Positions 1 through 47,771 of a stretch of 64,000 bases of DNA are shown here, piece by piece. The DNA comes from Desulfurococcales archaeon (GTDB lineage: Archaea; Thermoproteota; Thermoprotei_A; Sulfolobales; NBVN01): NCBI GenBank assembly GCA_023255955.1, contig JAGDWD010000001.1, positions 1 to 64,000 of the forward strand, given 5' to 3'. The first letter of the stretch is position 1; the number at the start of each line of letters is the position of its first letter. Below the pieces are notes generated by a model, which worked only from the letters and a program-made list of their open reading frames with translations, had not been told where the DNA came from and did not search any database. A program made the position numbers and the translations under genes.

Positions 1-85
1 CCTTAGGAAAAACTAGGGAGGTTTTTCTATGTAATGGAATGTAGGGGTTTATAAGCTTTTCTGTTTTCTGGTCTCATGCGTGTTC
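1..85 (+). promoter_or_regulatory. Conserved ~85-bp promoter element, copy 1 (inverted repeat GAAAAAC-N7-GTTTTTC, then TTTATAA TATA-like box)
   Basis: Near-identical to 31091-31175 and 44151-44237; TATA-like ggggtttataagctttt about 25-30 bp before the ORF start; CCTTAGGA operator half-site at bases 1-8. Confidence 0.75.
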
Positions 86-18312: not shown

Positions 18313-19090
18313 TCAGCCTCTAGAACTTAGCTTCACCACTAGCTTTACAACCCGCTTCCTAGGCTTTAGCTTAGTATCCTCTACGTAGGTTAGGTAACTA
18401 TCCTCTAAGTCCTTAACATCTGCCTCGGTTAACCCCAGGAGGCTGTACGCGTATGCTAGTTCTACACCACCATACTCAACTACTAACTTTCTAACCAACT
18501 CTAGGTAGCGACTATCTAGGGAGATGGGTAGTATAGGTAGCTTAACTGCCTTCCTAAAGGTTTCGTGTATTAGTACATGGCTCCAGCTCCTGCAAGCATG
18601 GAGGCAAGAACAAGGAAGTAGGCCTCAGCCTTAACCCGGAGCTGCGTTTACGTAGATCTTATACCCCATCCTAGAGTACTCAACTACATCACCTACAGCA
18701 ATGTCAGCTAGGGATGCTAAACCATCATCAAAACCCTCGACAGATCTTATAGCCTTCAGTACCTTAATGAAGGTAGGTACGCCCTTTCCCCCCAAGTACC
18801 TAGCTACAATCTCTGAAGCTAGGTAAGATGAGCAGATAGCTGTTGGGTATAGGGAGACCATTACCCCAATACTCCCATACCTAGACCTAGCCTCATCTAC
18901 AGCAGCTAGGATCCCGGCTAGCTCAGCACAGGAGAACCTAGGGTCCGACTTCACGAAGTCTAGTAGGGCTTTAACTAAGAGCTCCTCCCATAGGTAATTG
19001 CAGACCCTACCATTGGGGTATGTATTTCTAGGATCATCGATCGATAGTTCAGCTAACGAACTAGCCCCATACCTAGTTACAACACCTCAA
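18313..19090 (-). pseudogene. APE2256/TIGR02619-type CARF protein (Crn1-like), frameshifted paralogue of 31241-32122
   Basis: LLDFVKSDPRFSCAELAGILAAVDEARSRYGSIGVMVSLYPTAICSSYLAS...KIYVNAAPG* then frame changes before GGVELAYAYSLLGLTEADVKDLEDSYL; two apparent single-nt deletions relative to the intact copy. Confidence 0.82.
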
Positions 19091-30500: not shown

Positions 30501-30823
30501 CTATTCACGCAGAATGTCCAAGTCATTATTATCTTTCAATTCTATCTTTTAGATTCACCCCGCATGATTATCCCGATGCTTATCCCCATAGATTTATCTT
30601 TCAATTCTATCTTTTAGATTCATGTGAAGAATGCTGATGCGATAGTGTTCATAGAGATATCGAATAGCCTTTCAATTCTATCTTTTAGATTCGTCATCTC
30701 CTCTGCGAAGTTGTATAATGCAGCACCTATCGCCTCTTTCAATTCTATCTTTTAGATTCCATTGATAAAGGGGAGAGCGGGGCGAAGCCGTTCAAGGAGC
30801 TTTCAATTCTATCTTTTAGATTC
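27596..30823 (-). CRISPR. CRISPR array 1: 24-nt repeat CTTTCAATTCTATCTTTTAGATTC (+ strand; transcript GAATCTAAAAGATAGAATTGAAAG), ~48 clear repeats plus one degenerate distal repeat
   Basis: Direct reading of repeats from 27671 to 30800 with spacers ~36-46 nt; degenerate unit at 27596; leader on right. Confidence 0.98.
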
Positions 30824-31030
30824 TGTGTCGTGGGCCTACATCTCTATCTATCAGATTCAGATCCAAGTATTATTTGTGTCTAGATATTTAAGCTTTTCCT
30901 CCGGGTTGGGTTGTGAGCTCCCTAGAGTATTTTTAAGTGGGGTCCACGAAGCCTCCCAACCCAGTCTATACATCAAGATCCTATGGTGGACATAGGAAAA
31001 CTTAAGGTATCTAGCTATAGAATGGTTCTT
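30824..31030 (-). promoter_or_regulatory. CRISPR leader, array 1
   Basis: Nearly identical to sequence adjoining array 2 (43883-44065); minus-strand TATA-like GGAAAAGCTTAAATAT ~60 bp from first repeat. Confidence 0.85.
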
Positions 31031-31090
31031 AGAGCTACATGAACTTAGCGACCGAAAAGCTTTTATTTGCTTACCCTTCTTCCTATGGTT

Positions 31091-31175
31091 ACCTTAGGAA
31101 AAACTAGGGAGGTTTTTCTATGTAATGGAATGTAGGGGTTTATAAGTTTTTCTGTTTTCTGGTCTCGTGTGTGTT
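31091..31175 (+). promoter_or_regulatory. Conserved ~85-bp promoter element, copy 2
   Basis: Same as 1-85 and 44151-44237; GAAAAAC-N7-GTTTTTC and tttataag TATA-like box. Confidence 0.8.
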
Positions 31176-31240
31176 GTATGGTTCTTGTGTTTGGTGGTTA
31201 TGTTGGGGGGCTTGGTGTTTTTTAGTTTGGTCCTGGAGTT

Positions 31241-32122
31241 TTGTTGGGGTTAGCTTTGGTTGGGGTTTTCGTGGTGTCTACTGTGGGTACGTCTTTGTTT
31301 AGGAATATCTCGAGGTCTCGGGATTATTTGGAGGTGGTTGGTAGGTACGGTGTTGAGAGGTGGGTTGACATGTCCTTGGATTCTCCTGATAATAGCTATC
31401 CTTTGGGTAGGGTCTGCGGGCTTTCTGGGGATGGGTACCTGGTTAACGCGTTCGTGGATTTCATACGTTCGGATCCTAGGGCTTCCTGTGCTGAGCTTGC
31501 TGGTGTCCTGGCTGTTGTTGAGGATGTTTGGGCTAGGTATGGTAAGGTACCTATTGAGGTGGGTCTCTACCCTACGGCTAGCTGTACGTCCTACCTAGCC
31601 TCGAGGATTCTTGAGAGGTACTTGGTGTCTGGGGGGTTTAAGGTGTCTGTCAGGGTTGTCGAGGCTATCAGGTCTGTAGAGGGGTTTGATGAGGGGTTGG
31701 CATCGCTTGTGGATCAGGTTATTGGTGACGTTGTTGACTACTCGAGGAGGGGGTTTAAGGTCTACGTAAACGCGACGCCCGGGTTTAAGGCTGAGACCTC
31801 CTTCCTCGTTATAGCCTCCATACTAGCCGGGGCATCAGCTATCTACTACATACACGAAAGCTTTAGGAGGCCTGTTAAGCTACCTATAGTACCCCTAGAA
31901 GTACGTAGGGACTACCTCAGCTTGCTGGAGTCCATAGCTAGGGAGGGGGGTGTGGAGCTAGCGTACGTGTACAGCACTCTAGGCATGACGGAGGCGGACG
32001 TGAAGGACCTTGAGGACAGGTACCTAGCTTACTCAGATGAGGCTAGGCTCAAGCCTAGGAAGTGGGTTGTGAAGCTACTTGAGAAACTGAGGTGGTTGCG
32101 GGAACCTGAGGAGGGGCTCTAA
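31241..32122 (+). CDS. CRISPR-associated CARF protein, APE2256/TIGR02619 family (Crn1-type ring nuclease candidate)
   Basis: FIRSDPRASCAELAGVLAVVEDVWARYG..YVNATPGFKAETSFLVIASILAGASAIYYIHESFRRPVKLPIVPL. Confidence 0.82.
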   Translation: MLGLALVGVFVVSTVGTSLFRNISRSRDYLEVVGRYGVERWVDMSLDSPDNSYPLGRVCGLSGDGYLVNAFVDFIRSDPRASCAELAGVLAVVEDVWARYGKVPIEVGLYPTASCTSYLASRILERYLVSGGFKVSVRVVEAIRSVEGFDEGLASLVDQVIGDVVDYSRRGFKVYVNATPGFKAETSFLVIASILAGASAIYYIHESFRRPVKLPIVPLEVRRDYLSLLESIAREGGVELAYVYSTLGMTEADVKDLEDRYLAYSDEARLKPRKWVVKLLEKLRWLREPEEGL

Positions 32123-34555: not shown

Positions 34556-35185
34556 GTGAGACTCTTCATAGTTCCACTAGGGTTCCATGAGGATATAGTA
34601 CTACGCGCTCTCATACGCTTAGGAGCTCAGCCTGGTGATGTAGTGTACACTGTAACGTGTGGCCCAGCTGCTGAGGCTGTTAAAAGGGCTTTTGAGTCTC
34701 TGCAGGCTCAATGCCTTAGGCAAGGTCTTCCTGAGCCTAAGCTCCTCGAGCTTAACTGCCGGGATTTTTACGGATCGATTAGGGCAGTTAGGTCTACTCT
34801 CTCTGAGTATGGTGAGGCAGAGGTATTCTTCTGTAGTGGTGGGGGCTTAAGGATACTAACGCACATAGTTGAGGTAGCTCTGTTCGTTACTAGGAGACCC
34901 TTCAACCTCCACTACGAACCTGAGGGCGAAGGAGCCAGTGTAGTTGACGTCCCTAACACACTATTTAGGGTGATGTACGAGGGAGTTAGGGGAATTAGAG
35001 AGAAGGTCCTAAGGAAAGTTATAGAGAACCCTGGAATAGCTGTAAAGGAGATATCGCAGATGCTGGGTGTTGAGGAAAAGACTGTACAAAATGCTCTCAC
35101 ATGGCTTAAGGAGCGCGGACTTGTAGTTAGGAAGCCGAAGGGGAGGGCCAGGCCGACAGAGATCGCAGTAGCTCTCTACGGCTAG
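34556..35185 (+). CDS. csa3: Csa3-type CARF-wHTH transcription regulator
   Basis: LGFHEDIVLRAL, CSGGGLRILTHIVEVAL, wHTH IAVKEISQMLGVEEKTVQNALTWLKERGLVVRKPKGRARPTEIA. Confidence 0.87.
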   Translation: MRLFIVPLGFHEDIVLRALIRLGAQPGDVVYTVTCGPAAEAVKRAFESLQAQCLRQGLPEPKLLELNCRDFYGSIRAVRSTLSEYGEAEVFFCSGGGLRILTHIVEVALFVTRRPFNLHYEPEGEGASVVDVPNTLFRVMYEGVRGIREKVLRKVIENPGIAVKEISQMLGVEEKTVQNALTWLKERGLVVRKPKGRARPTEIAVALYG

Positions 35186-43882: not shown

Positions 43883-44065
43883 TGTGTGTTGGGCCTGCAT
43901 CTCTATCTATCAGATTCAGATCCAAGTATTATTTGTGTCTAGATATTTAAGTTTTTCCTCCAGGTAAGTCGCTCAGCTCCCTAGAGTATTTTTAAGTGGG
44001 GTCCGCGAAGCCTCCCAACCCTGTCTGTACATCGAGATCCTATGGAAACCATAGGAAAACTGATT
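43883..44065 (-). promoter_or_regulatory. CRISPR leader, array 2
   Basis: Same sequence as array 1 leader with few changes. Confidence 0.85.
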
Positions 44066-44150
44066 AAGTTTATATGTAGAGAAAAGTGATGGAGTATCGT
44101 AGGCTTATAGACCGAAAAGCTTATATTGGCTCAGTGGTTTTCCTAAGGCT

Positions 44151-44237
44151 ACCTTAGGAAAAACTAGGGAGGTTTTTCTATGTAATGGAATGTAGGGGTT
44201 TATAAGCTTTTCTGTTTTCTGGTCTCATGTGTGTTCC
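44151..44237 (+). promoter_or_regulatory. Conserved ~85-bp promoter element, copy 3 (adaptation operon promoter)
   Basis: Same as 1-85 and 31091-31175; precedes csa1-cas1-cas2-cas4. Confidence 0.82.
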
Positions 44238-44395
44238 TTTGTTTTTCTTGGGTTGTTCCTATGGTTTCTTTGGGTTGTTTTGGTTGTGGTTGTTTGGGGT
44301 GGTTTGGGTTTCTTCCTATGGTTTTCTTGGGTGGGTTTTCTGGGTTTCTTGGGCTGTGTGTTTAGTTTTTCTGTGTTGGGGTTTGGTGGTGGTTT

Positions 44396-45259
44396 GTGTT
44401 GGTTGTTAGGTCTGAGGTTTTGTTGAGGTGGTTGAGGGTTTTGAGGTCTTATGCTGAGAGCTACCCTGTTGAGCCTGGTTTGAGGGGTTGGTCGTGGCAG
44501 TTTCCTCCGGTTAGGCCCAGGGCTTTTCTGGGGCTTTCGGTTTATGATGTTGCTTCGTACTGTCCTAGTAGGAGGGATGTGTGGCTTAGGAGGGTTGCTG
44601 GGGTTAGGGCTCAGCCTTCTCAGGCTATGAGGTTCGGTTTGGAGGTTCACGAGGTTATATCTAGTGTTGTTAGGGTTGTCAGGTCCTATCTGAGGGCTCC
44701 GAGGGACCTGCCCAGGGTTTTCAAGGCTGTTGAGAAGCTCGTGGTGTCCAGGACTGCTGGGCTGGCCTCGCCTGAGTTGGTTAGGCTTGTCGAGGAGGTT
44801 GCTTGGCTCACCTACCACACAGTGGTCTCCGAGTGGTTCTGGTCTCAGTGTAGCTCGTTCCTAGCACCAGCAATGCTCTCCCTGAGTGAGGTGAGGGTTG
44901 ACGGGACCCCGGTAGGGCTCAGCAGTAACCTCAGGGTTGACGCGATACCGGTATCGAACGTAGTCGTGGACTTCAAGGTAGGTAGGAGGAGTGATAACCA
45001 CGAACTATCCGTAACAGCCTACGCGATGGCCCTGGAAGCGAGCCTGGAGGTCCCGGTCGACTACGGGCTACTAGTGTACATAGGCTGGAACGGAGGTGTT
45101 CAAGTAGATGTTAAGGGCGTGTACGTAGGGCCTGACCTGAGGAGGACCTTCATAGACTCGAGAGATGAGGTCATAGACATGGTCCTCAGCAGTAGGGAAC
45201 CACCCAAAGCAGTAGAGTGCCCCAACACGTGCCCCTACCTCGAGGTGTGCGGTAAGTGA
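44396..45259 (+). CDS. csa1: Csa1 (Cas4-family) adaptation protein
   Basis: GLSVYDVASYCPSRRDVWLRRV..RFGLEVHEVI..VDFKVGRRSDNHELSVTAYAMALE..ECPNTCPYLEVCGK Cys cluster. Confidence 0.88.
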   Translation: MLVVRSEVLLRWLRVLRSYAESYPVEPGLRGWSWQFPPVRPRAFLGLSVYDVASYCPSRRDVWLRRVAGVRAQPSQAMRFGLEVHEVISSVVRVVRSYLRAPRDLPRVFKAVEKLVVSRTAGLASPELVRLVEEVAWLTYHTVVSEWFWSQCSSFLAPAMLSLSEVRVDGTPVGLSSNLRVDAIPVSNVVVDFKVGRRSDNHELSVTAYAMALEASLEVPVDYGLLVYIGWNGGVQVDVKGVYVGPDLRRTFIDSRDEVIDMVLSSREPPKAVECPNTCPYLEVCGK

Positions 45260-47117: not shown

Positions 47118-47771
47118 TTGTTTCTCTACGGGGGTTTAGTGGGGAGGAGGTTCATCATATCCCTAGGCTTCCACGAGGATAGGGCTATCAGGAGATTGAC
47201 CATGTCCTCAGCCTCCAGGGACGATGAGGTCTTCCTAATCACGGCGTCGACCTCCCCAGCTGTCTTGAGGGCCTACGACTCCCTAGTTAGTTTCTGCAGG
47301 AAGGCCGGGCTCCGGGAGCCTAAGCTCGTTGAGGTTCCTTCAGACCTCTACGGGGGTGTTGCTAAGATAGCTGAGCTAGTTCTAGGCTTTGAAGGGCCGG
47401 TCGTGGTCGATCTATCTGGTGGTATGAGGTACCTAGCTGTCCTGGGGATGCTGGCTCTGTTCCTAGCTAGGCGTAGAGCTGTTGTCTATGTCCAGCCTGA
47501 GGGTGAGGGGCAGGACCTGGAGATCCCGGAGTCTGTTATGGACCTAGCACACACGTCTCTCCAGGACCTCGAGAGATCCATCCTAAAGATGGTAGCTGGG
47601 AGTGAGGGACTTAGAGTTGAGGATGTGGCTAGGTCCTTAGGTAGGTCCCCTAAGACGGTTGCTAACGCTGTATCTAGGCTTCAGAGGCTGGGTCTAGTGG
47701 TTAGGAGGGGTAGGTCGGGCGGTCTCCACCTGACGAGTGTTGGTAGGCTAGCAGTCCTACTGGGTGTCTAG
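47118..47771 (+). CDS. csa3: Csa3-type CARF-wHTH regulator (second copy)
   Basis: SLGFHEDRAIRRL..VVVDLSGGMRYLAVLGMLALFLARRRAVVYVQPEGEG..wHTH RVEDVARSLGRSPKTVANAVSRLQRLGLVVR. Confidence 0.88.
   Translation: MFLYGGLVGRRFIISLGFHEDRAIRRLTMSSASRDDEVFLITASTSPAVLRAYDSLVSFCRKAGLREPKLVEVPSDLYGGVAKIAELVLGFEGPVVVDLSGGMRYLAVLGMLALFLARRRAVVYVQPEGEGQDLEIPESVMDLAHTSLQDLERSILKMVAGSEGLRVEDVARSLGRSPKTVANAVSRLQRLGLVVRRGRSGGLHLTSVGRLAVLLGV

Follow-up and report, generated by a model that had tools for sequence, protein, structure and literature searches.

What do two 19-base palindromes control when they lie between a CRISPR array and the gene for a predicted ring nuclease? The question is raised by the window, ie the whole 64,000-nucleotide stretch analysed here, from the genome of a Desulfurococcales archaeon. 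The initial annotation read the palindromes as a paired operator, placed between the leader of array 1 and a rightward gene and repeated at the csa1 locus, which would put a cA4-degrading enzyme under the same control as the spacer-acquisition genes. Both palindromes at array 1, P1 (TCCTATGGTGGACATAGGA) and P2 (TCCTATGGTTACCTTAGGA), were confirmed to the base, with a start-to-start distance of 102 bp, and the pair is mirrored on the csa1 side at a nearly equal 103 bp. The four sites were located by pattern scan and leader alignment.

30979..30997, no strand: P1, the leader-distal palindrome of array 1
31081..31099, no strand: P2 of array 1
44038..44056, no strand: P1 of the csa1-side leader
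44141..44159, no strand: P2 of the csa1-side leader

The window contains no other perfect matches to TCCTA-N9-TAGGA than these; when one mismatch is allowed there are 14 matches, compared with 5.3 expected. The genome (1.64 Mb in 13 contigs) contains 7 perfect sites, whereas the reversed pattern used as a control occurs 3 times. Leaders hold five of the seven, and the others are at C4:58042, in a coding frame, and at C12:192428. The site counts, together with the conservation across species described below, rule out a chance origin of the palindromes.

The likeness of the two pairs in the window is not independent evidence, because both belong to paralogous copies of a single leader block. The duplicated block extends approximately 330-350 bp outward from the last CRISPR repeat, and the array 1 and csa1-side copies have identities of 90% on the side of P1 that faces the array, 58% in the P1-P2 linker, and 98% to the right of P2. 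A search of the genome revealed a third copy on contig C12, at an orphan array which has no adjacent cas gene and whose neighbour, a HAD-type gene, ends toward the leader. That array (L005:5619-7600) has about 26 repeats and a complete leader. The array 1 leader is 87% identical to the C12 leader, and the similarity stops at query position 333 (window 31156). The leader defined in this way is approximately 330 bp long, which is unusual for a CRISPR leader, and it takes in both palindromes. The rightward gene is present as annotated, but P1 and P2 are in fact inside the leader rather than between it and the gene. Nor is a rightward gene the constant partner of the pair, since the gene next to the orphan array points toward the array. 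The parts of the block at array 1 are listed here with the partial copy at the start of the window.

30800..30823, minus: leader-proximal CRISPR repeat of array 1 (GAATCTAAAAGATAGAATTGAAAG on the minus strand)
30824..31156, minus: CRISPR leader block of array 1, delimited by similarity to the orphan-array leader
30841..30858, minus: half copy of the CRISPR repeat within the leader (TCTCTATCTATCAGATTC), from the leader alignment
30883..30899, minus: BRE/TATA-like promoter (GGAAAAGCTTAAATATC) facing the array, the probable pre-crRNA promoter, predicted by inspection and conserved position
31052..31068, plus: conserved putative BRE/TATA-like element between P1 and P2, pointing away from the array
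31105..31112, no strand: TAGGGAGG, the same in all 11 leaders aligned
31139..31155, no strand: putative TATA (TTTATAAG) with a strong BRE on the array-facing strand, from the leader alignment
31157..31176, plus: segment common to the csa1 copy and the window-start copy, absent from the orphan leader
1..84, plus: partial leader block copy (half of P2 and the outer promoter), before a radical-SAM gene

The start of the window is the end of its contig and falls inside P2 of a fourth leader. A fourth array, C5:32-3248, begins at the start of its own contig and, judging from these contig ends, probably joins the half leader at 1-84; breaks in the assembly seem to fall at the repeated leaders.

Independent evidence is provided by other species, in which the pair is kept where the rest of the leader has diverged. 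P1 and P2 are both present in all 11 complete leaders from four genomes of the genus, whose members live in hot springs: the window's own, G001 (four places), G004 (three complete leaders and one cut by a contig end) and G002 (at csa1). In the complete leaders the distance from the first repeat to the start of P1 is 152-156 bp, or 136 bp in one that has a deletion, and the starts of P1 and P2 are 99-103 bp apart. That spread does not support a strict helical phasing of the two sites. The linker sequence is strongly diverged among the 11 leaders while the positions of the palindromes are kept. It is very improbable that the palindromes are functionless relics of recent duplication, as the paralogy of the blocks within the window's genome might suggest: their arms, positions and spacing persist over four species despite the diverged linkers, and the motif family to which they belong is strongly spacer-specific before csa1 across the order, as described below.

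Two other elements of the leader are equally constant. The half copy of the repeat lies approximately 17 bp from the first repeat and is in the same place in 11 of 11 leaders. It appears to change together with the repeat, since in G001, and in two of G004's three complete leaders, it is identical to the corresponding half of that species' repeat, and it could be a landmark for Cas1 or for Cbp1, which binds repeat-like motifs (PMC10883916). The element TAGGGAGG (region 31105-31121) is followed after 6-7 bases by an ATG, an arrangement that resembles a Shine-Dalgarno sequence. It was rejected as the start of a conserved small protein because the frames that follow are, on inspection, mostly of 1-3 codons or unrelated, and it may mark the start of array-facing transcription.

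The genes beyond P2 differ from one leader to the next. They are csa1, the crn1-like gene, pyrF, a PRPP-synthetase-like gene and a helicase-like gene (the last three named from reading their translations); at two of the remaining loci no gene follows for hundreds of bases and at one the neighbour is convergent. As these genes are mutually unrelated, the pair belongs to the array leader, irrespective of what class of gene lies beyond. P2 lies about 40 bp from a TATA, and the evidence suggests that P2 is an extra site which serves the leader, because the strongest BRE of the adjoining TATA faces the array and the similarity to the orphan leader ends just past that BRE. The same TATA (31139..31155) could also be used for outward transcription.

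The occurrence of the pair follows that of Csa3. All four genomes with csa1 and Csa3 have pairs, and none of the three without them (G003, G005 and G006) does, showing scattered single matches only; the congener genomes are MAGs, 79-97% complete, so these absences are soft evidence. The distinct leader sites give a 19-bp consensus, TCCYA-N-G-N5-C-N-TRGGA, in which T1, C2, A5 and their partners are invariant and G7/C13 nearly so. The arms are TCCCA/TGGGA in the congeners and TCCTA/TAGGA at most sites of the window's genome, which has one mixed site. The wider pattern TCCYA-N9-TRGGA occurs in that genome at 11 places, six of them leader sites; compared by eye, all six have kept G7 and C13 and none of the other five has.

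A related motif is found outside the genus. Within 400 bp before csa1, TCCC-N10-GGGA is present at 15 of 26 loci, from 10 genera, compared with three loci for N11, one for N12 and at most three for the remaining spacers, and a control scan of gene bodies gave no sites for N10-N12. Many of these loci have two N10 sites, separated by approximately 95-220 bp. Palindromes of this family are therefore typical of csa1 promoters across the order, the version in this genus being longer by one base. The sites resemble CAPPa, the 18-bp palindrome described from leaders and acquisition promoters of 27 Sulfolobales, which tracks Csa3a (PMC8699464): the half sites are TCCC and GGGA, the locations are array leaders and the region before the acquisition cassette, and there is co-occurrence with Csa3. 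The legend in that paper prints TCCC-N8-GGGA; the sites upstream of csa1 in other genera (L079-L100) are N10, ie 18 bp, in agreement with the length given in its text. An exact match to CAPPa is ruled out for the palindromes studied here, since every leader site of the genus is 19 bp (N11) instead of 18 bp (N10), and we therefore regard them as a variant of CAPPa and not as members. They differ further in a T/A variant at one arm position in the window's genome and, in all leaders examined, in being doubled about 100 bp apart, with three further sites at csa1.

Those further sites, P3 to P5, lie between P2 and the first gene of the acquisition operon.

44235..44253, no strand: P3 at csa1, two mismatches, +92/94 from P2
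44257..44275, no strand: P4 at csa1, one mismatch, +114/116 from P2
44314..44332, no strand: P5 at csa1, one mismatch, +170/173 from P2 and about 84-85 bp before csa1
44396..45259, plus: csa1 (TIGR01896), first gene of csa1-cas1-cas2-cas4-csa3-cas6

They are at fixed offsets from P2 in all four genomes with csa1, except that P4 has been lost in G002, while the number of sites with up to one mismatch expected by chance between P2 and csa1 is approximately 0.01 or less per locus. P5, at about -84 from csa1, is comparable to the promoter-proximal sites of other genera, which are mostly at -71 to -106. CAPPa is placed some 12 bp ahead of the BRE/TATA of the acquisition genes; no clear TATA could be assigned for P5. 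The coding strand is very rich in G+T from the leader to csa1 (44230-44395, containing P3-P5) and likewise before the crn1-like gene (31170-31240).

A precedent is found in S. islandicus, where Csa3a binds and activates the csa1 promoter (PMC4333418) and has a leader-distal motif, at -143 to -94, which is required for efficient adaptation (PMC9456107); spacer acquisition falls when that motif is mutated, and Cas1 is released by Csa3a at the leader (PMC9456107). There too one site is upstream of the first repeat and one upstream of csa1. By position and half-site, P1 may be taken as the counterpart of the leader-distal site and P5 as that of the csa1 site. However, the single S. islandicus motif compares with two sites here, P1 at about -153 to -175 and P2 at about -255 to -275, and their sequence differs from TTCNTAACTAAANANGGNNNGAAA, reported for S. 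islandicus Csa3a. A second CARF-wHTH regulator of that species, Csa3b, similarly acts on the csa1 promoter, from a position upstream of that of Csa3a; it represses csa1 and also controls the csa5 promoter (PMC7480081), and its site is described as unrelated to CAPPa (PMC8699464).

Two Csa3 proteins are encoded in the window.

47118..47771, plus: Csa3 regulator in the acquisition operon, best candidate binder of the sites
34556..35185, plus: second Csa3, beside type I-A interference genes

The product of 47118 matches the Csa3 CARF domain PF22662 with 96.9 bits (cut-off 27) and TIGR01884 with 90.5 bits (cut-off 60.2), with HTH matches in addition, and the Csa3 pocket motif G-F-x-E-x4-R is kept in both proteins. 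E173, K174 and N178 are reported as conserved in the recognition helix of Sulfolobales Csa3a (PMC8699464). The csa1-operon protein has P-K-T-x-x-N and those of the congeners A-K-T-x-x-N, so that K and N are kept while E gives way to P and A, respectively. The helix typical of Sulfolobales Csa3a, E-K-T-x-x-N, is that of the interference-side protein. This match speaks for a different reader of the sites, either the 34556 protein or an unrelated regulator; we think such a reader improbable, as G001 and G004 have the csa1-operon Csa3 as their only Csa3 and yet carry multiple pairs.

Taken together, the presence of the pair in diverged leaders beside varied neighbours, its co-occurrence with Csa3, the related motif before csa1 in other genera, the additional sites P3-P5 and the published Csa3a sites lead us to consider it likely that the palindromes are Csa3 operators, most probably of the csa1-operon copy, fixed in the leader and acting there as well as on csa1. 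Their main target is probably the leader of the array. Bound at P1, in the place of the S. islandicus leader-distal motif, a Csa3 dimer would aid pre-crRNA transcription and also Cas1-directed spacer insertion; another at P2, where the outer promoter elements lie, could act together with the first and would affect transcription out of the leader in either direction. Csa3 on P3-P5 would control csa1, P5 being at the usual site position before the gene. Several observations count against this reading: most other genera have a spacer shorter by one base, the P1-P2 spacing is spread over 99-103 bp, the absences in congeners come from incomplete MAGs, the genome has a second Csa3, and the published binding of Csa3a is in part non-specific and does not depend on cA4. 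Thus Csa3a of S. solfataricus bound CAPPa non-specifically and without effect of cA4 (PMC8699464), and in another study binding was specific, again independent of cA4 (PMC8844856).

The sites may instead be landmarks for adaptation, with Csa3 or another DNA-bending protein at P1 and P2 shaping the leader and docking Cas1 for insertion at the first repeat. This is a real possibility, if short of an even chance. The position of the pair is fixed relative to the repeat, it is found at all leaders regardless of the gene, and in S. islandicus the requirement for the leader-distal motif and the release of Cas1 by Csa3a (PMC9456107) would fit such a role. On the other hand, the palindromes are found ahead of csa1 as well, arranged as is typical of promoters, and the BRE/TATA-like elements next to P2 are conserved. 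Roles as operator and as landmark can, moreover, coexist.

There remains the gene that gave rise to the question.

31241..32122, plus: Crn1-like CARF protein (Cas_APE2256), predicted ring nuclease; start uncertain (TTG at 31241 or later)

The annotation of this gene as a Crn1-type CARF protein is borne out by a score of 97 bits against Pfam Cas_APE2256 (cut-off 24.8) and by alignment over the CARF domain to the structures of Sis0811 and Sso1393. The Gly-Thr-Ser of motif I is conserved, and so is the Lys aligned with G-[LF]-K of Sis0811; in Sso2081, Ser11 of the motif is required for full activity (PMC10018336). The protein thus shares with the Crn1 ring nucleases (Sso2081, Sso1393 and Sis0811; PMC10018336) a CARF domain with the GTS motif and Lys, and is unlike them in its score against the NCBIfam equivalog NF040951, 116.4 bits with a cut-off of 600, and in being encoded directly behind a CRISPR leader. 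As the score is far below the equivalog cut-off, we describe the protein as Crn1-like and as a predicted ring nuclease. A decayed copy of the gene, 55% identical and with two stop codons, is present at 18328-19086 on the minus strand. The genome also encodes Csx1 proteins and a Cas10 with a match to the palm domain and an AGGDD stretch in its translation; with GGDD in Cas10, Csx1, and the motif residues of a ring nuclease in the Crn1-like protein, cA4 signalling is credible in this organism, judged from sequence.

If the pair were the dedicated operator of the rightward promoter, csa1 and the crn1-like gene would be controlled together, and acquisition with cA4 clearance. The credible cA4 circuit agrees with this, and so does the segment at 31157-31176, which is common to the crn1 block, csa1 and the window-start copy and is not in the orphan leader, making the outer end of the block csa1-type. 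We nevertheless regard a dedicated operator as unlikely. The pair is equally present at orphan leaders next to housekeeping genes or a convergent gene, and the csa1-specific P3-P5 were not found upstream of the crn1-like gene, where the only candidate is a site with two mismatches at 31231, overlapping the predicted start codon. A search of the congeneric genomes did not find the crn1-like gene, and more distant Crn1 homologues had no such palindromes nearby when these were counted over whole loci. What the crn1-like gene has is P1, P2 and the 20 bases of the csa1-type outer segment.

Of the original proposal, the reading of the palindromes as operators of a regulator is very likely right, given their conservation and their link to Csa3, and the idea of a private switch for the 31241 gene is not upheld. 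Control of that gene together with the acquisition genes would hold only in so far as the leader and promoter block is shared, and not as regards P3-P5. Under the Csa3-operator reading the crn1-like gene could respond to Csa3 and cA4 via the leader pair alone, since its outer promoter segment is shared with csa1. Shared control of the crn1-like gene and csa1 is therefore plausible and partly supported, from the leader pair in a single genome; it has no support across species, as the congeners lack the gene.

Palindromes of the CAPPa type, associated with Csa3a, were already known from leaders and acquisition promoters of Sulfolobales. The present sites are a Csa3-associated variant of these, 19 bp long and doubled in every leader examined of this genus. 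Csa3's reading of its palindromes is disputed, having been found specific in one study and non-specific in the other, with cA4 without effect in both. The sites described here are doubled, are identically placed in every array examined and number five at csa1, which suggests that the real target may be cooperative binding of several dimers. Together the four genomes amount to phylogenetic footprinting of the leader of an archaeal CRISPR array, and at the crn1-like gene the control of a neighbouring defence gene by such a leader may be put to the test. More speculatively, and in our view with little likelihood, the leaders of this genus would be portable Csa3-responsive modules that bring neighbouring genes under Csa3 and cA4 by means of the doubled operator and an outward TATA, and that have here captured a ring nuclease and so formed a negative feedback loop. 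If this were true, Csa3, responding to cA4, would drive both the acquisition of spacers and the removal of cA4.
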